Shown: positions 1-10,894 of the stretch, piece after piece
How the letters are laid out: each line of letters opens with the position of its first letter
How positions within the stretch are numbered: the stretch's first letter is position 1
Program-made: the position numbers and the translations under genes
NCBI RefSeq assembly: GCF_002159945.1
Contig: NZ_NFJQ01000010.1
Coordinates: forward strand, 1 to 64,000
Source: Cloacibacillus sp. An23
GTDB taxonomy: Bacteria > Synergistota > Synergistia > Synergistales > Synergistaceae
Length of the DNA: 64,000 nt
Direction of reading: 5' to 3'
The notes under the pieces: model-generated
What the model was told of the DNA's origin: nothing
Databases searched by the model: none
The model's input: the letters and a program-made list of their open reading frames with translations, nothing else

Positions 1-2066
1 AGCGCGCGCATAATGAGCGCTTTGACAATTACCGCGCCGATGTCCTGCAAGAGGCCGAGCATTGCGTCGCTGAGCGACTCCGTGCCGCGGATGGCGCTCT
101 CGAAGGCGCTGCCGATGCCCGTCGGGAAATTCATGAGGCTTTCGCGCGCGTCCTCCCAGACGGCTCCGGCCTGCTGGCCCGCGGATAAATAGCGGCTCTC
201 CACGCTTGCAAGCTGCTCACCTGCGAGTTTGACCGCAAGCGGCAATTCCGCGAACTGCTGTTTGAGTGCCTCTATCTGTGCTTTGTACTGTCCTGCGCTG
301 ATAGCGCCGGATTCATAGCGTTTTTTCAGCGTGTCGAGCGTGTCCGACAGCTGCTGAGTCCCGGCAGACTGCCAGTCGCTGAAAAGCGCCTTCTCGCCGT
401 CCGTCATGTTAAATGCTCCTTTGACTTTGAGCCCAAGCTCTTCGACGCGCTGATTCAGAATGTTGAAGTAGTCCGAGTTAGAAAGAAGCCCCTGCGAGTT
501 CTCCCAGCCGAGGCCGGAAAGATACTCGCGGTCGGCGCGCTCGTATATTTCGGCGAGCTCCTTCGCGGCCTCTTTCTGTTTCTCGATGCGCGCGAGGACA
601 CGGTCGGCGTTTTCGGCGTCGAGGCGGATAGCCTCTTTCGCGGCTTTTTCGGCTTCCCGTGCCGCCGCCTTTATTTCGGCGGCGGAAGTTTTTACCGCGC
701 TGCCGGTGGAGGCAACAGAGCCCGCGAGAAATTTCGTCGGGTCGGTTTCAACTTGGAATCCGGCGCTATATTTTTGAACAATCTGCCGTGCTTGCTCCAT
801 AATGCTTAGCCCCGATTTATTTTCTGGGACTAAGTTCAGCCCGCCGCGGACTGCCGCGCCTTTACTGGAAAACAGGCCGCTGAAATCCATTTTCACATTA
901 TCAGCAACCTTGCCGACGCGCACGGAAGCCTCTTCGCCTTTGCGTGCGAGGAAATCAAAGAATCCGGCGATTCGGTCTTTCAAGTCTTCGAAAAATTTTC
1001 CGAGTTCATCCCACTTAGTCACAATCACATAAGCGGCTGCGGCAGCGACGCCGGCGACAAGAGTGAACGGCCCGCCTGCCGCAAGCATGGCTACGCCGAG
1101 CTTCGCAAGCGCCGGGATTAGCATGACCGTTATAGCTGTTGCAACGGCTGCAATCGCACCCTGTACTTCCGGCGGCACGAGCTTCTTGAACGCCTCGCGA
1201 ACGCCGCTCGTCTTTATCTCCTGTGACAGAGCGGTGAGATATGTCGAGACGTCCGACATCTTCGTTTTTAGGTCGAGTCCTTCGGTTATGGAGTCGCCTA
1301 TGCTGCGCATGATGCTTGATATGGAGTCCTGCATATTGCTGAGCTGGTACGGTATCTCGTCCGCGGACTCCTCCATGATGCCGTCGAAGCGGTCTCTCAT
1401 GCCGGTAAAAATAGCTTCAAGTGCCGTTTGTGCTGATATGGCTCCTTTTGACGCCTGCGCCTGCACTTCCGCGACGGACTGCCCAGTATAGTCAGCGAGC
1501 ATCTGCCAGCCTGCGATGCCTGTCTCAGTCAGTTGGAGCATCTCTTCGGCTGACACTTTGCCTTTTGACGCCATCTGACCGAGCGCGAGAGTTATGCGGT
1601 CTATGCCCTCCTGACCGAGGCCGAGCGCCGCAGCCGCGTTGCCGACGTTGTTGAGTATCGGGATGACGGCCTCAGCCTGGAAGCCGTAAGCCTGCAAACG
1701 TTTCGAGGCGTCGACAAGCCCCGCGAAATCGAACGGCGTTGTGGCTGCGAAGCGCTCCAGATCACGGAGATGCTTTTGCGCAGCATCGGCCGAACCTGTT
1801 AATACGGTCATAGATTTTTGGGCGACCTGAAAATCGGCGGACATTTTCACGGCGGCGACGCCAAGAGCCGTGAGGCCGGCGGCGGCATATTTTACGCTGG
1901 ACAACAGGCTCTGAGACATTCTGACTGCATTTTTCCCGAAGGTCGCGTCTATGCTCTTGTTGATGCGCTTATTCGCTTGTTCTACTCGCTGTGCGAGCTG
2001 ACTAAAGCCGCTCACGGCTGCGGAAATGTTCGCAGTTATTCTATATTGCAGAGTCGTACTTGCCAT
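1..2066 (-). CDS. Phage tail tape measure protein (partial, 3' end outside window)
   Basis: The minus strand is open from an ATG at 2066 to the left edge, giving 688 codons without a stop. The protein begins MASTTLQYRITANISAAV. Its first 200 residues read like tape-measure N-terminal domains, with an LTGSADAAQKHLRDLERFA segment and an AEEMLQLTETGIAGWQML segment. A hydrophobic stretch follows around residues 310-345, then long Lys/Glu/Ala-rich helical segments. In siphoviruses this protein sets tail length and is ejected with the DNA. It overlaps the downstream tail chaperone frame by 26 bases, the usual place for a tape measure gene. Confidence 0.88.
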   Translation of the reverse strand, partial: MASTTLQYRITANISAAVSGFSQLAQRVEQANKRINKSIDATFGKNAVRMSQSLLSSVKYAAAGLTALGVAAVKMSADFQVAQKSMTVLTGSADAAQKHLRDLERFAATTPFDFAGLVDASKRLQAYGFQAEAVIPILNNVGNAAAALGLGQEGIDRITLALGQMASKGKVSAEEMLQLTETGIAGWQMLADYTGQSVAEVQAQASKGAISAQTALEAIFTGMRDRFDGIMEESADEIPYQLSNMQDSISSIMRSIGDSITEGLDLKTKMSDVSTYLTALSQEIKTSGVREAFKKLVPPEVQGAIAAVATAITVMLIPALAKLGVAMLAAGGPFTLVAGVAAAAAYVIVTKWDELGKFFEDLKDRIAGFFDFLARKGEEASVRVGKVADNVKMDFSGLFSSKGAAVRGGLNLVPENKSGLSIMEQARQIVQKYSAGFQVETDPTKFLAGSVASTGSAVKTSAAEIKAAAREAEKAAKEAIRLDAENADRVLARIEKQKEAAKELAEIYERADREYLSGLGWENSQGLLSNSDYFNILNQRVEELGLKVKGAFNMTDGEKALFSDWQSAGTQQLSDTLDTLKKRYESGAISAGQYKAQIEALKQQFAELPLAVKLAGEQLASVESRYLSAGQQAGAVWEDARESLMNFPTGIGSAFESAIRGTESLSDAMLGLLQDIGAVIVKALIMRA

Positions 2067-2379
2067 CGCCGGCCGTCTCCTTTATCTTCTCGAGCCTGTA
2101 CCTGTTCGCCTCTTCCGGCGTCATTACGCGACCGCCTTCCCATTCGCCGCAGAGCTTCTCTATCGACGGCGGCTTTTTACCCTGATAGAGCGCCACGAAT
2201 ACGGCGAGCTCCGCGCGTTCGCGCCTCGCAAGATAGCTTTTGTAGTTGTATGCGTGGATGAGGTCGGACAGCTGACCTCTGGTAACGTGCCAGAGGTCTT
2301 CGTGGCTCAGCCCAAGCGGGCCGAGCGCCATTAGAAATAGGGACTGCCGTTCGTCTAGGCAGTCCCTTCCGCGTTTTTT
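2041..2379 (-). CDS. Tail assembly chaperone, T part, reached by -1 frameshift (gpGT-like)
   Basis: This frame encodes a 96-residue segment from the ATG at 2331 (MALGPLGLSHEDLW), but it is open further upstream to the A-rich slip site at 2373-2379. It has no obvious ribosome binding site at that ATG. The layout matches the lambda G/GT arrangement: short upstream frame, slippery heptamer, second frame, then the tape measure gene. The likely product is a fusion of about 220 residues sharing its N-terminus with the 2355-2705 protein. The GT form would bind the tape measure and recruit tail tube protein, as known for lambda; that role is inferred from position. Confidence 0.85.
   Translation of the reverse strand, partial: KKRGRDCLDERQSLFLMALGPLGLSHEDLWHVTRGQLSDLIHAYNYKSYLARRERAELAVFVALYQGKKPPSIEKLCGEWEGGRVMTPEEANRYRLEKIKETAGDGKYDSAI
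2340..2379 (-). promoter_or_regulatory. Programmed -1 frameshift signal: slippery AAAAAAC plus hairpin
   Basis: On the minus strand the heptamer A AAA AAC (2373-2379) is in X XXY YYZ phase. After a 6-base spacer comes a perfect 9-bp stem, GGGACTGCC (2358-2366 in minus sense) pairing with GGCAGTCCC (2340-2348), with a 9-base loop that holds the zero-frame stop. The -1 frame is open straight through into the 2331 ORF. These are the textbook elements of a -1 frameshift. Confidence 0.9.
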
Positions 2380-2705
2380 GCGTCTTCGCCGTTCTGCGTG
2401 GCGAGCGGAATGATGCGCAGGACGAACGAGTTTGTGAGCTCGCCGACTATATCTGCGTACACTGCCGGATAGTCGCCGTCGGCCTGGTCCAGTATCGCGC
2501 CGGCGCGTTCGAGCGTCATACCGCGATTGTTCGCAAGCAGTACGGCCCAGAATATAGCGCGGATGAGACGCAGGTCCAGCACGCCATTCGAAATCTGCTG
2601 CATGATAGCACTGAGCGGCTGATGCATCGTGTCCTCAAGCATACAGACCGCGTTGAGGCCGAACTCGATTTTATAGTTTTTACCGTTTATAGTGACTTCT
2701 CGCAT
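2355..2705 (-). CDS. Tail assembly chaperone, G part
   Basis: A 116-residue protein starting MREVTINGKNYKIEFGLNAV, consistent with the small tail assembly chaperones found between the tail tube and tape measure genes of siphoviruses. It is mostly helical and non-catalytic. Its last codons contain A AAA AAC in the reading phase needed for a -1 slip, and its own stop codon lies in the loop of a 9-bp hairpin. Most ribosomes should make this short form and a minority the G-T fusion. It follows the tail tube gene with an 11-base gap. Confidence 0.85.
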   Translation of the reverse strand: MREVTINGKNYKIEFGLNAVCMLEDTMHQPLSAIMQQISNGVLDLRLIRAIFWAVLLANNRGMTLERAGAILDQADGDYPAVYADIVGELTNSFVLRIIPLATQNGEDAKNAEGTA

Positions 2706-2716
2706 GACTGTCCCTC

Positions 2717-3142
2717 CTAGACGCTCGCCTGCGCGGTGCTGTCGACGTCGCCGCCGGCGACGAAAGTGACGGCGGCCTCGACGCGCCCGTCGACCGACGC
2801 CGAGTAAGAGAGACCCGTTATATAGGCCGGTATCTTATCCTGCGGCTTCGACGCGCCCGTGCCGTCCGGACGGTAGAAGATGTATATGAGCGTGTCGTCT
2901 TTCTGCGCTCCCTCAATGAGCTGGAGCGTCTCGCTCTCGGGGTCTACGATTATCGTAAACTCGCCGCGTGCATCTCCCTGCCCCGGGACGTACTGCTTGT
3001 TTTTGTCGAAAACTCCGGTCACGTCCACTTCTGTTTTACTTTTGTCGTAGCTCCAGCTCGCCAGGGCTTCGAGGAGGTCGGGCTCGCCGACTCCGTCTTC
3101 CGAGACCATGAGCTGAGCGTTTTTTGCAAGCTGTCTGGCCAT
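2717..3142 (-). CDS. Major tail tube protein
   Basis: A 141-residue protein (MARQLAKNAQLMVSEDGVGE) in the slot of the tail tube gene, between the tail terminator (DUF3168) and the tail chaperones. The sequence alternates short beta-like segments, for example GEFTIIVDPE and YITGLSYSASVDGRVEA, which fits the gpV/Hcp-like beta-barrel that polymerises into the tail tube. No catalytic motif is seen. Its start overlaps the upstream stop by one base. The call rests on synteny and fold-like pattern rather than a signature motif. Confidence 0.75.
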   Translation of the reverse strand: MARQLAKNAQLMVSEDGVGEPDLLEALASWSYDKSKTEVDVTGVFDKNKQYVPGQGDARGEFTIIVDPESETLQLIEGAQKDDTLIYIFYRPDGTGASKPQDKIPAYITGLSYSASVDGRVEAAVTFVAGGDVDSTAQASV

Positions 3143-3952: not shown

Positions 3953-4270
3953 CTACGCCTCCATCCTGCAATCCATCTCGCATACGGCGTGCGCATAGTC
4001 CGGCCGCACGGCGCGGACGGTGAGCGTTTTGCCGCGCCATGTTATCACGTCGCCGTTTTCCGGCTCGATTTTGCCGAGCTGAATCGTGACCTGGTGCGTG
4101 CGCAGCTCGAGGTCACGGCCGGAGATGATTCCGCTGCGCGAGCGCGTCGCCGTGACCTTCGCCCAGCAGTCGCAGAGCTTTTCAAGCGTACGCACCGAGC
4201 CGCCTATGCCGTCGTCGCTTGTCTTCGGCCTTGATATGGTTATCCGCTCCCTCAGCTCGCCCGGGTTCAT
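3953..4270 (-). CDS. Phage head closure / head-tail adaptor protein (SPP1 gp16-like)
   Basis: A 105-residue protein with the family's N-terminus, MNPGELRERITISRP, and a middle WAKVTATRSRSG segment. The GDVITWRGKTLTVRAV part matches the small beta-barrel of head completion proteins. In the virion it sits below the connector ring and seals the filled capsid. It overlaps the upstream connector gene by 4 bases (ATGA), so translation is probably coupled. Confidence 0.8.
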   Translation of the reverse strand: MNPGELRERITISRPKTSDDGIGGSVRTLEKLCDCWAKVTATRSRSGIISGRDLELRTHQVTIQLGKIEPENGDVITWRGKTLTVRAVRPDYAHAVCEMDCRMEA

Positions 4271-4584
4271 GCGTAGTCACCGCAGCCTTCAATGTGCGCG
4301 AGTATCGCGTCCACTGTGTGGCGCACCGGCGACTGCGCCGCGGAGCCGGACGAGACTATTTCACGACTCTCGTACCAGTGCGCGACCATAAGCTTGACGC
4401 ACTGGCGGTACAGTTCGTCGTCGGCGAGCGCGAGAGGCTCGCCGTCTTTGACGAGCCTCTGCGTTTTGCTCACCTTGCCCGCGATATACGCCTCCGCCGC
4501 CGCGAGCTGACTTTTTATCAGCGCGTCGTCCGTGTCGTCCGGGACGCGAAGATAGAGCTTAAGGTCGTCGAGCGTGAGCGGCAT
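4267..4584 (-). CDS. Head-tail connector protein (HK97 gp6-like)
   Basis: A 105-residue protein beginning MPLTLDDLKLYLRVPDDTDD, the usual opening of gp6-like DNA packaging/connector proteins, followed by a helical SQLAAAEAYIAG segment. It forms a ring beneath the portal. It starts 3 bases after the stop of the Ig-like extension of the capsid gene, which argues that the extension is translated as part of the capsid gene rather than from a separate gene. Confidence 0.82.
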   Translation of the reverse strand: MPLTLDDLKLYLRVPDDTDDALIKSQLAAAEAYIAGKVSKTQRLVKDGEPLALADDELYRQCVKLMVAHWYESREIVSSGSAAQSPVRHTVDAILAHIEGCGDYA

Positions 4585-4587
4585 GGC

Positions 4588-4857
4588 TTACGCCCCCACG
4601 GTGATTTTGACGCTGAACGTCCCCGTGTCGGCCGTGACGGCGAAGGTGTGCTCCGCCTCGCCGAGAGTTGAGAGATAGTCGTCGAGGAACGTCAGCTTCC
4701 CTCCGCTGAAGGTGTAGTTCGTGCTCTCGACCGTCGCCGGCGTCTCGTCCTTAATTCCCGTTATGCTGTTCGCCCCTGTAACCGTAAACACCACGTCGGC
4801 CGGGCTGCCCTTGCTGAACGTGGCTGATTCAGGGTCTACGGTTACGCTGATTTTTTT
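4588..4857 (-). CDS. Ig/X2-like domain appended to the major capsid protein by -1 frameshift
   Basis: About 87 codons encode a beta-sandwich-like domain from ISVTVDPESATFSKGSPAD to a SVKITVGA end. The NYTFSGGKLTFLDDYLSTL segment resembles X2/Ig-like modules. There is no ATG, GTG or TTG in this frame close to the domain, so no independent start is visible. The frame instead joins the capsid frame at A AAA AAA (4851-4857): a one-base backward slip changes ...YLKKSA-stop into ...YLKKISVTV. Phage Ig-like domains made this way are known; they decorate the capsid surface and may bind carbohydrate. Confidence 0.82.
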   Translation of the reverse strand, partial: KKISVTVDPESATFSKGSPADVVFTVTGANSITGIKDETPATVESTNYTFSGGKLTFLDDYLSTLGEAEHTFAVTADTGTFSVKITVGA

Positions 4858-6059
4858 AGGTACACGAACGCCTTCGTGGTTATCGGCTTGCCGTCGAGTA
4901 TCGCGTAGCCCATGAACTCCGTCTGGCGCTTCGTCATATACTCGTCGCGGAGCAGCGAGATTTCCTCCTGCACGTTCATGCGGTAGCCGCGCTGGACGTT
5001 CGCAAGCAGCATGGCGTCCGCCGGAACCGCGTCCTCCTCGTAGACGACATGGCCGAAGAGCCTGCCGACGCCGCCGGAGATAACGTCGGCGATGAAGTAC
5101 GGGCGTCCCGTTTCGTCGAGAAGGTTCGCGAGTACGTTCCATATGAACGAGTTCTTGGCGTAAATGACGGCGCCGGAAGAATATCCGCTGCGTATCTTGC
5201 CCATGAACTCCGTGAGCTTCGCGTAGTCGACCTCGTCGGTGCTCGCCGTCCACGTCATGACCTGCGGCGTGCTGCTCTCGGCCTCGAGCGCAGTGACTAT
5301 GCCCTGCGGCTGATTGGTCCCGGTGCCGGAGACGACGGCGGCCGCGAGCGCGTTGCCCATCTTCTCGGCGATGAGGTTCGCGATATAGGTCAGGAACGCG
5401 TCTATGGACATCTTTTCGAGTTTCCACGAGATGAGTATCGACTTCGCGAGCTCATATCCGTCGAGCACTATCGAATCGAGCTCGAAGGAGCCGGACGTGA
5501 CCTCGGTCGATTCGTTGTACCACGTCGCGTTGTCTCCGCCGTCCTTTTCGCGCGGATAGGTGAGCTTGCCTTTGACGTAGGTCTTTGGCACGACGCGGAG
5601 TATCGGGTGCGCCTCGCCCATCTCCTTCCATATCTGCTCTACGAGGGTGTTCGGTATGACGATGGTGTGCGTTGAGGCGGTCTGGAGCGCGCCGTGTACT
5701 TCTAGGCCGTTGTTCATGCGCGCGAACACCGCGCTCTCGTCGGCGTTGAGCGGCTGGTTCATGAGCGTGCGTGCGAAGGCGGTGCGGTAAAGCGCCTCTT
5801 CGTCCCGCGGGCCGCCGGTCTTCTCGGCGGATTTCGCGCCCTCCGGTTCGACGCTCTTGTCTTCGATATTCACCGGAGCGCTGACCTTCATCGCGAGTAG
5901 CGCGTTGAGGCTCGCGGCTTCCTTGTCGTGCTTTTCTTTATCCGCGTCGAGCGACTCTATCGCCTCGCGCTTCTCCTTCGCGAGCGCGAGGTCGCCCGAG
6001 TTGAGGGCCTCGCGCGCTTCGTCCATAAGTTTCTGGCGCTTTTCTATGTAATCTTTCAT
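4842..6059 (-). CDS. HK97-family major capsid protein
   Basis: A 405-residue protein. Residues 1-60 are a charged helical region (MKDYIEKRQKLMDEAREALN) like the scaffold/delta domain that a prohead protease removes. The rest reads as the HK97 fold, with the N-arm PNTLVEQIWKEMGEAHPILR, the KLTYPREKDGG region, and a C-terminal YRMNVQEEISLLRDEYMTKR. It lies directly after a ClpP-like protease gene, as expected for a capsid matured by cleavage. A minority of product probably carries the frameshifted Ig-like extension, giving about 490 residues. Confidence 0.93.
   Translation of the reverse strand: MKDYIEKRQKLMDEAREALNSGDLALAKEKREAIESLDADKEKHDKEAASLNALLAMKVSAPVNIEDKSVEPEGAKSAEKTGGPRDEEALYRTAFARTLMNQPLNADESAVFARMNNGLEVHGALQTASTHTIVIPNTLVEQIWKEMGEAHPILRVVPKTYVKGKLTYPREKDGGDNATWYNESTEVTSGSFELDSIVLDGYELAKSILISWKLEKMSIDAFLTYIANLIAEKMGNALAAAVVSGTGTNQPQGIVTALEAESSTPQVMTWTASTDEVDYAKLTEFMGKIRSGYSSGAVIYAKNSFIWNVLANLLDETGRPYFIADVISGGVGRLFGHVVYEEDAVPADAMLLANVQRGYRMNVQEEISLLRDEYMTKRQTEFMGYAILDGKPITTKAFVYLKKSA
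4851..4857 (-). promoter_or_regulatory. Slippery heptamer AAAAAAA at the end of the capsid gene
   Basis: On the minus strand the capsid frame reads CTA AAA AAA TCA GCG TAA, so the seven A's are in A AAA AAA phase, suited to a -1 slip. I see no strong hairpin just downstream. A purine-rich GAAGG lies 13 bases upstream of the heptamer and could act as an internal Shine-Dalgarno stimulator, as in dnaX; that part is inference. Confidence 0.75.
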
Positions 6060-6062
6060 TTC

Positions 6063-6731
6063 TTATCCTCCTGTGTTTTTCATTTCAAGCAGCCGGAGCC
6101 GCTCGTATTCCATAGACGCGGCGTATATCGCGCCCGCGTTCTTTGTGCAGGCCGCCATCTGTATAGGCGGCTTGATACTCACTCCGCGAAAGAGCGCGGC
6201 AGTCTCCGCCGCGGAAAGGTAGCTTTCCTTGCCCATGAGCTCTATTACTCGCTCAAGGTCGTCCGTCACGTTGAGCCGCTCGGAGTAAACCGACACAACG
6301 GCGTTGTCGACTTTTGCAAGCAGCTCAGCGTAGCGCGCAAGTTCTTCCGTGTTGCCGGAAACCGAAGCCCACGCGCGGTGAATCATGAGCATCGTATTTT
6401 CGGGCATCTCGATGACGTCGCCCGCCATCGCTATGACGCTTGCGATGCTCGCGGCGATGCCGTCGACGTGGACCGTCTTGCGCCCCTTGTAGCGGCTCAG
6501 CATGTTGTAGATTGCCATGCCGGCGAAGACGGAGCCGCCGGGAGAGTTGATGTAGATGTGCAGATGCTCGCTGCTAAGCCCGTCGAGCATCCGGCGGATG
6601 GCCTCGGGGTATTTGTCTGCCGAGCTCCACGCCTCCCACCAGTCGGAGACGATTTCGCCGTAAAAGTAGAGCGCCGCGTCTCCGTTTGCGAGATTCCGCA
6701 CTCGGAGCAGCGTGCTGAGGTTCTCCTTCAT
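6063..6731 (-). CDS. ClpP-like head maturation protease
   Basis: A 222-residue serine protease of the ClpP/crotonase fold. Visible landmarks are the oxyanion segment YINSPGGSVFAGMAIYN, the nucleophile region GIAASIASVIAMAGD (Ser of the ASIAS motif) and the catalytic His in MLMIHRAW. It would cleave the capsid scaffold domain during prohead maturation. It overlaps the portal stop by 4 bases and is 3 bases from the capsid gene. Residues 1-35 are an extra N-terminal strand region common in phage members. Confidence 0.92.
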   Translation of the reverse strand: MKENLSTLLRVRNLANGDAALYFYGEIVSDWWEAWSSADKYPEAIRRMLDGLSSEHLHIYINSPGGSVFAGMAIYNMLSRYKGRKTVHVDGIAASIASVIAMAGDVIEMPENTMLMIHRAWASVSGNTEELARYAELLAKVDNAVVSVYSERLNVTDDLERVIELMGKESYLSAAETAALFRGVSIKPPIQMAACTKNAGAIYAASMEYERLRLLEMKNTGG

Positions 6732-7882
6732 TCTTCCTCACCTCCTCCGCCGACGACGGCCGTGTCGAGCCGCCTTATCGGTCTGTCGCCGCCTTCGATT
6801 GGCGCCATGTTCAGCACTTCGCGCCACTCGTTGGGCGTCATCGCACCGCGGTCTACCATCTGGAGCAGGTTGAGCTTCGTGCTCATCGAGGCGTATTGCA
6901 GGCTGTTCGCGCCAAAGGTGATGCGGTGTCCGGCCTGGCGCTCTCGCGGCGAAAATAGCTTCCGCGTAAACTCGTCGCTCATCTGCTTGGCGACCGGCTC
7001 AATCTGTGCCTCGTAGAAGGCGTTCCACTCGTCCTCGGTGTATGAGTTCTGCACGATGTTCTGATTGACGCCGAAAAAGCTGTATATGCGGCGCTCCGTC
7101 CTGTCGGTCTGGAGGACGTTCGGGACGTAGTCGTTCGGCTTTATCTGCTGCACCTCGGCTTTCGCGTCGGTCGCGGCGACGCCCGTGCCGTTGCCTTCGG
7201 TTGAGAGGTACATCTCCGCGAAGTTCTCGGCCTGCTTTTTAAGGTCTTCCGGCCTTATCGTCTGGTTCCATTTGACGAGCCAGCGGATTATCGCGCCGTT
7301 TTTGATGGCGTCCATGAGCCCCTTGTCGCTGGTACCGACCAGCTCCATCAGCGGCGTGAGCGCCTCCTGCGCGCTCGTCCCAAAGATGTCGTTCTCGTAG
7401 TAGTCGCGCCGCAGGTGTATCACGTCGCGATACGGGTACGTCACCATACGCCCGTTGCGCAGCACGAAGCGCAGATAGAGGTTATAGCCCCTGTCGTAGA
7501 TAGCCTCGGCGCTCATGACCGGCAGCGGATACAGCTCTATCGGATAGCCGTTATGGTCGCGGTTGATATAGGCGAAGGCGTTTCGGTTGAGCGTGAGCTG
7601 CGCGGCGAGTTTTTCCTGGAGCATACAGCCCGCCATGTAGGGATTCGGTTCCGTGAGGATTTTGCGGATGTAAAAATAATCCGCCTCGTCGCCCTCCGCC
7701 TTGACGTGTACCGGCGTGAGCTTGCCGATGGCTGATACGTGCGGCTGTATGCAGCTGCGCAGGATGTCGGACTTGTAGAGCTCTCCGCCCCACTGGTAAT
7801 AACCGTTGCCTCTGTCCTGTATGACTTCGTAGCGTACGCGGCTCGGGGCGCGGTTAAAAATCTTCGCAAGCCACTTAAACAT
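6728..7882 (-). CDS. Phage portal protein (HK97 gp3 family)
   Basis: A portal of about 384 residues. I prefer the ATG at 7882 because a GAGG lies 8 bases upstream; in-frame GTG and ATG codons just upstream could also serve. The sequence has typical portal segments: GYYQWGGELYKSDILRSCI near the N-terminus, AAQLTLNRNAFAYINRD, PYRDVIHLRRDYYENDIFG, and YSFFGVNQNIVQNSYTEDEW in the stem/wing region. It forms the dodecameric DNA channel and docks the terminase. The order is TerS, TerL, portal, protease, capsid. Confidence 0.93.
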   Translation of the reverse strand: MFKWLAKIFNRAPSRVRYEVIQDRGNGYYQWGGELYKSDILRSCIQPHVSAIGKLTPVHVKAEGDEADYFYIRKILTEPNPYMAGCMLQEKLAAQLTLNRNAFAYINRDHNGYPIELYPLPVMSAEAIYDRGYNLYLRFVLRNGRMVTYPYRDVIHLRRDYYENDIFGTSAQEALTPLMELVGTSDKGLMDAIKNGAIIRWLVKWNQTIRPEDLKKQAENFAEMYLSTEGNGTGVAATDAKAEVQQIKPNDYVPNVLQTDRTERRIYSFFGVNQNIVQNSYTEDEWNAFYEAQIEPVAKQMSDEFTRKLFSPRERQAGHRITFGANSLQYASMSTKLNLLQMVDRGAMTPNEWREVLNMAPIEGGDRPIRRLDTAVVGGGGEEE

Positions 7883-7892
7883 GGGCATCACC

Positions 7893-10389: not shown

Positions 10390-10662
10390 TTATTCGTAGT
10401 GCTCCCACATACTTATGACTTTTACGGTATGTTCCGCTTCGTACACGGCATACACAAGCCTATGCTGTCGGTTTATCCTTCTGGAAAGCATTCCTTTAAG
10501 GTCACCGACCAGCTTTTCATATGGCGGATAGGGCTTGTAAGGGTTTTCTTTCAATATCCCTATAAGCTCCTTCACCTTATCTCCGAAGCCAGCGCTAATT
10601 GCAGTCCTCTTATCCTTGAGCCCCTGCTTCGTGTAAACGACTTTCCATGGTTCATTCATCAT
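10390..10662 (-). CDS. yoeB: YoeB-like mRNA interferase toxin
   Basis: A protein of about 90 residues of the Txe/YoeB RelE-fold family: KVVYTKQGLKDKRTAI, KPYPPYEKLVGDLKGMLSRR and INRQHRLVYAVYE. It ends in MWEHYE, retaining the family's C-terminal His-Tyr. It would cleave mRNA in the ribosomal A site. I place the start at 10662, inside the end of the antitoxin gene, because the family begins at about EPWKVVYT; the frame is open to 10686. Overlap with the antitoxin stop implies coupled translation. Confidence 0.9.
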   Translation of the reverse strand: MMNEPWKVVYTKQGLKDKRTAISAGFGDKVKELIGILKENPYKPYPPYEKLVGDLKGMLSRRINRQHRLVYAVYEAEHTVKVISMWEHYE

Positions 10663-10894
10663 CGGGGTCTTCCACGCATTCATCAAGCGGCGTGTTCAGT
10701 CCGTCGATAAGTTTCTCCCTCATCCCAGGAATGGAAAGGAGATACAATGTCTCGTTTATCGCCTTGTAGTCGTTCTCGGACAACATGACGACATTTCCCT
10801 TTTTTGACGTTATGAATGTCGGTTCTTCTGTTGTAATAACCTCGTCAATGACATTGTACAAATTCTGACGGGCAGCCGTCGCATTAATAATCAT
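10652..10894 (-). CDS. yefM: YefM/Phd-family antitoxin
   Basis: An 80-residue protein beginning MIINATAARQNLYNVIDEV, the usual YefM/Phd DNA-binding N-terminus, then PTFITSKKGNVVMLSENDYKA, and an acidic tail (ECVEDPDDE) that would wrap the toxin. It should neutralise the YoeB-like toxin and autorepress the pair. A strong Shine-Dalgarno (AGAAGGAGG) lies 9 bases before the ATG. It sits as an independently promoted unit between the late regulator gene and the packaging genes. Confidence 0.9.
   Translation of the reverse strand: MIINATAARQNLYNVIDEVITTEEPTFITSKKGNVVMLSENDYKAINETLYLLSIPGMREKLIDGLNTPLDECVEDPDDE

Follow-up and report, generated by a model that had tools for sequence, protein, structure and literature searches.

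A putative -1 ribosomal frameshift signal predicted to append an X2-class Ig-like domain to a phage major capsid protein in Cloacibacillus sp. An23

The major capsid gene on contig NZ_NFJQ01000010.1 of Cloacibacillus sp. An23 very probably contains a programmed -1 ribosomal frameshift signal, which would yield, as a minority form, a capsid protein extended to about 490 aa by an X2 domain at its C-terminus. The majority of ribosomes would continue in the zero frame and terminate at TAA, giving a capsid protein of 405 aa. A minority, with two tRNA-Lys on A_AAA_AAA, would meet a stem-loop 5–8 nt downstream; both tRNAs would then re-pair one base back and 87 more codons would be translated, encoding an Ig-like domain of the X2 class. 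The hairpin would be written in the first third of the domain's coding sequence, such that domain and stimulator form one unit, and a similar unit appears to lie behind a major tail protein, again in the -1 frame, in a different phage whose host belongs to the same family. The slip site, frame, predicted fold, conservation, covariation and selection were all observed in the sequences compared; from these, we infer the occurrence of frameshifting and its efficiency. The window, i.e., the whole stretch of 64,000 nucleotides analysed here, included the following features:

4842–6059, minus strand: major capsid protein, zero-frame product of 405 aa, HK97 fold (PF05065, phrog_10, AlphaFold2 model)
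4851–4857, minus strand: putative slip site A_AAA_AAA in phase X_XXY_YYZ, identical in 19 loci
4842–4844, minus strand: zero-frame capsid stop codon TAA
4588–4851, minus strand: predicted -1 frame extension, X2/Ig-like domain of 87 aa plus stop (CBM_X2, pLDDT 92, Foldseek)
4267–4584, minus strand: head-tail connector, the next gene after the extension (PF05135, E = 4e-12)
6063–6731, minus strand: ClpP-type head maturation protease, the upstream gene (PF00574, phrog_94)
6728–7891, minus strand: portal protein (PF04860)

Profile, modelled fold and head-gene order all identified the zero-frame product as an HK97-fold major capsid protein. The ORF matched Phage_capsid PF05065 (E = 1e-38) and phrog_10, the major head protein, while its AlphaFold2 model matched the capsids of RcGTA, T5 and HK97. 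On the minus strand, a large-terminase-like ORF (recognized by eye) was followed by the portal, the ClpP-type protease, the capsid and the connector. A viral contig of 23.6 kb in IMG/VR contained a capsid and domain identical to those of the window.

The capsid ORF ended GTG TAC CTA AAA AAA TCA GCG TAA, with the first base of the slip site 16 nt ahead of the end of the stop codon. Read in the -1 frame, the join became AAA AAA ATC AGC GTA, or KK-ISVTVDPESATF...KITVGA, and continued for 87 codons, the first being ATC, until a stop at 4588; the connector gene started at 4584, leaving a gap of 3 bases. The preliminary description had placed the domain frame here, joined to the capsid frame at a phase-correct heptamer and ending 3 bases ahead of the next gene, and both its coordinates and its reading of the frame proved right. 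It was equally correct that the frame has no start codon nearby: on the identical viral contig (L021), the -1 frame had no ATG, GTG or TTG between 60 nt before the slip and 45 nt after it. Among the long ORFs of the window, a phase-correct A_AAA_AAA occurred 3 times in 14,616 codons, and the chance of finding one within the last six or so capsid codons was approximately p = 0.001. The CTA that precedes the lysines is the rarest leucine codon in these ORFs (2.2%), while AAA accounts for 43% of their lysine codons. Counting against a frameshift, A_AAA_AAA slips less than A_AAA_AAG in E. coli (PMC5009743). The decisive evidence for the putative join was its conservation, in 19 homologous loci and in the substitution pattern of the -1 frame.

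When 53 genomes of one GTDB family were searched, three were found to encode capsid homologues with 53–63% identity and an identical join. The X2 domain alone had no match among GenBank phages, and so the comparison was drawn from IMG/VR and whole genomes. Scanning IMG/VR with the capsid alignment returned 42 loci and the GTDB contigs provided one more; a first scan of genome contigs had found nothing, and the second found a single MAG contig. In 19 loci, A_AAA_AAA was located 13–16 nt ahead of where the capsid stop codon ends, and the -1 frame extended for 84–259 codons beyond this stop, encoding between one and three X2 domains. In 25 other homologues that these searches had returned, there was neither a phase-correct heptamer at this place nor an X2 encoded in the -1 frame; the counts are raw, and both sets include near copies. 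In the capsid tree, the X2-bearing sequences belonged to one well-supported set, which also included two without X2. Between close pairs, changes in the -1 frame were mostly at third positions (dN/dS approximately 0.1–0.3), a pattern not expected of an artefact or a decayed gene; the -1 frame therefore appears to be a conserved, overlapping reading frame under purifying selection. The heptamer by itself was not diagnostic, since the GenBank phage JD033 had A_AAA_AAA 28 nt before the capsid stop and no X2 frame. In an Enterococcus gallinarum phage (L016, from position 2541), the -1 frame was open briefly past the capsid stop and HeH/SAP-like, with no phase-correct heptamer.

The extension was assigned to CBM_X2 by family and fold. 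It matched PF03442 at 39.1 bits (E = 8e-10; curated cut-off 28.9), the domains of its relatives scored 29–73 bits, and it was the only match to this family in the 2.9-Mb host genome. Structure prediction, as the preliminary description had proposed, returned an Ig-like beta-sandwich (pLDDT 92). By fold, the best solved relatives (Foldseek) were the middle modules of tri-modular GH5_4 endoglucanases (TMq 0.67–0.78); by sequence, they were an IgA protease domain and the X2 module of CipC (1ehx). We interpret the frameshift product as a minor isoform of the capsid protein displaying X2 domains, which would face outward if T7-type minor capsid proteins are a guide. Both forms would presumably enter virions, making a mosaic capsid, and the extension may have a role in weak surface attachment or capsid decoration.

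Binding of glycans or mucus by the putative phage X2 is a guess. X2 is named as a carbohydrate-binding domain, and binding is disputed even for scaffoldin X2 (PMC9022034). The extension might instead be a spacer, an aid to solubility or a decoration that stabilizes the shell, binding no glycan, and we regard this as a serious possibility, falling somewhat short of an even chance. It agrees with the behaviour of isolated scaffoldin X2 modules, which are hydrophilic and did not bind directly to cellulose or cell wall (PMC9022034), and with the phage domains lacking the NGNT motif studied in scaffoldin X2. However, deletion of the X2 motif in the scaffoldin study reduced adhesion of cells to cellulose by 70% (PMC9022034), binding to epithelium increased when Ig-like domains were displayed on a minor capsid protein made by frameshifting (PMC13370021), and a displayed adhesin accommodates one to three repeats at least as well.

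The RNA immediately downstream of the slip site is predicted to fold as follows:

4778–4845, minus strand: stem-loop, likely frameshift stimulator (folding, covariation, synonymous recoding)
4834–4845 with 4778–4789, minus strand: outer stem GTAACCGTAGAC:GTTTACGGTTAC
4818–4824 with 4790–4796, minus strand: inner stem, with its extension 4813–4816 with 4797–4800

Folding placed the beginning of the stem in the window 5 nt past the heptamer, enclosing a one-sided loop and the inner stem; across loci, the stem-loop started 5–8 nt after the slip, within the X2 coding sequence. Covariation was evaluated in an almost gap-free alignment of eight loci with equal spacing, where 95.5% of 176 cells were paired and 9 of 22 pairs had changed on both sides. 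The covariation score was 0.440, compared with 0.196 in shuffled alignments (0/500) and 0.05–0.10 when partners were slid, and it held when the copy behind a tail protein (L069, see below) was added. This covarying stem-loop is consistent with a downstream structural stimulator at a spacing of 5–9 nt. Five further loci had outer stems of 10 bp with different sequences and wider loops. Four loci (L034, L036, L038 and L048) had an extension that opened with a linker rich in Gly, Ser and Asp, and a strong, differently built RNA structure after the slip; the structure of this group, which was longer, did not fit the shared stem plan. In tandem extensions, comprising two X2 domains in L022 and L023 and three in L027, L028 and L032, only the first domain, adjoining the slip, had the hairpin. 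A Shine-Dalgarno sequence upstream was considered as a stimulator and dropped, as the purines there encode a conserved TKAF.

As the stem is part of the coding sequence, each domain was recoded synonymously as a control. In 11 slip-adjacent domains, the outer stem was stronger than in the recodings (scores 20–27.5; p = 0.002–0.07 each, calculated per domain, the loci being related so that any combined p value is nominal). By this test alone, the result for the window's own stem was modest (p = 0.009–0.018). Fourteen X2 domains read in frame, i.e., second and third repeats of the same extensions, X2 on tail tube proteins and X2 on bacterial surface proteins, scored 12–15.5 when the best of seven registers was taken; two of the surface proteins reached p = 0.006–0.012 by this best-of-seven choice, with low scores. 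Model R2, a covariance model from which the slip site was left out, scored nine slip-adjacent copies at 76–89 bits, these being the same nine loci from which it was built, and in-frame copies at no more than 16 bits. The stem-loop therefore appears to be stronger than the protein sequence requires, and was missing from X2 domains read in frame.

A covariance model that included the slip site (R1) identified a second carrier, L069, in another genome of the same family (G009). Here, at 2373–3073 (minus strand), a major tail protein (phrog_1407, Phage_tail_2) was followed past its stop by an X2 domain read in the -1 frame and bearing the same hairpin. The join read TCT TTT ACA, a non-canonical heptamer, and the slip is less certain because only its T_TTT part can re-pair; the spacing from slip to stem was approximately 6 nt. 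In four other phages (L082, L084, L091 and L094), X2 was fused in frame to the tail tube protein and the hairpin was absent. Another R1 match, in G091 (27.9 bits), was rejected as an ordinary long ORF with no slip site. The X2 domain tree was weak in relating the tail module of L069 to the capsid modules. A review of recoding describes Ig-like domains as moving among virion proteins, in or out of frame (PMC5009743); L069 and the in-frame tail copies match this pattern, to which a stimulator inside the module would be an addition. By this evidence, X2 could be a portable recoding module, the coding sequence of which holds its own covarying stimulator hairpin. Such a module could settle behind one virion gene or another (the capsid, or in L069 the tail tube) and be produced as a C-terminal extension on a minority of the protein; the copies read in frame are without the hairpin. 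We consider the chances of X2 being such a module to be evenly balanced.

Transcriptional slippage could generate the same fused protein, if RNA polymerase occasionally inserted an extra A while transcribing the A7 run. Every capsid locus has this run and one additional A would yield an identical product, but the run was exactly seven in 19 of 19 loci, never longer, and always in X_XXY_YYZ phase, for which shared descent is part of the cause. A conserved stem-loop 5–8 nt downstream is moreover the geometry of ribosomal frameshifting, and the tail copy in L069 combined the same hairpin with no A run; slippage by the polymerase is thus improbable. It is still less probable, and indeed very unlikely, that X2 constitutes a gene in its own right, translated from a start codon of its own or by re-initiation past the capsid stop. 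Downstream of the slip, several loci had a GTG (+12 or +18) or an ATG (+27); however, such codons were absent from the window, L005, L006, L020 and the L034 group, those present had no Shine-Dalgarno sequence ahead of them and would remove the first strand of the domain, and an independent gene would need neither heptamer nor hairpin. A search for capsid homologues in which X2 forms a separate gene, started by its own codon, found none; in-frame fusions of X2 were seen instead on tail tube proteins. Least credible of all is an assembly error or decayed gene with a non-functional frame break, for while homopolymer runs are prone to sequencing error, the same break recurred across many isolates and independent assemblies, and was accompanied by purifying selection and by compensatory changes in the stem. 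The principal claim of the preliminary description, that a -1 slip appends an X2/Ig-like domain to an HK97-type capsid, is therefore supported by conservation, the covarying stem-loop, purifying selection and a confidently predicted fold.

As had been recognized at the outset, Ig-like domains added to virion proteins by frameshifting are already known: phage T3 and Lactobacillus phage A2 produce major capsid isoforms with an Ig-like extension through -1 frameshifting (PMC5009743). The window resembles these in having a major capsid gene, a putative -1 slip just ahead of the zero-frame stop and an Ig-like C-terminal extension. Its capsid is a distant homologue (approximately 35% identity) of those of the A2-like phages iA2 and P2.4; in both, C_CCA_AAA is found at the matching place, 13 nt ahead of the capsid stop. 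Given these precedents, the window system is a variation on a known type; the homologous capsid, the slip before the stop and the Ig-like extension would all agree with an A2-type isoform, the Ig-like class of A2 being taken from PMC5009743. Unlike the A2 type, the window has A_AAA_AAA rather than C_CCA_AAA, an extension of the X2 class and a covarying hairpin inside the domain's coding sequence, and loci of its type encode one to three domains, whereas the -1 extension of iA2, as read, was only about 23 residues. A minority of capsid subunits with a -1 frameshifted C-terminal extension is also seen in the gene 10B minor capsid protein of T7 and K1F (PMC3185693, PMC13370021); in T7 the extension is not Ig-like (PMC5009743) and its signal is unrelated to that of the window. 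Coat proteins are frameshifted in Listeria phages A118 and A500 (-1) and PSA (+1) (PMC5009743), where there is likewise a longer coat form and a frameshifted tail protein, but where the direction or signal differs, the comparison being by description only. The minor longer form of the SPP1 major tail protein, frameshifted and with an Ig-like domain (PMC3185693), parallels the tail X2 of L069, which differs in its X2 class, its shared hairpin and its less certain T_TTT-type slip. The X2 modules of CipC (1ehx) and the GH5_4 endoglucanases (4yzt, 4yzp) share the PF03442 family and Ig-like fold, while phage X2 is putatively joined to a virion protein by frameshifting and has no NGNT motif.

The use of -1 frameshifting to extend capsids with Ig-like domains thus has precedents; what is new is the X2 class and a likely stimulator embedded in the domain, and no report of X2 on phage capsids was found in the open-licence literature searched. 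Earlier cases came from a few cultured phages, while the putative ones described here are mostly from uncultured phages and prophages, and concern another class of domain. The RNA signal was resolved by covariation within sequence that also encodes the domain, and this provides a signature with which minor capsid and tail isoforms missing from annotation can be searched for. A stimulator travelling with its domain also becomes testable and, if true, would explain how an out-of-frame module is expressed soon after capture.

Beyond the connector, the minus-strand order in the window continued with head completion, HK97 gp10-like, tail terminator and tail tube candidate genes, and then two ORFs resembling tail assembly chaperones; the window begins at the contig end, and the tail module is therefore cut. 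The latter ORFs are likely to be a G/GT-type chaperone pair (2041–2705, minus strand, slip at 2373–2379). The first ended GCA AAA AAC GCG, with a phase-correct A_AAA_AAC leading to a -1 ORF at 2041–2331, and this would be a second -1 slip of the same phage. Upstream of the packaging genes, adjoining small ORFs at 10390–10894 (minus strand) resembled, by eye, a YoeB-type toxin and a YefM-type antitoxin.
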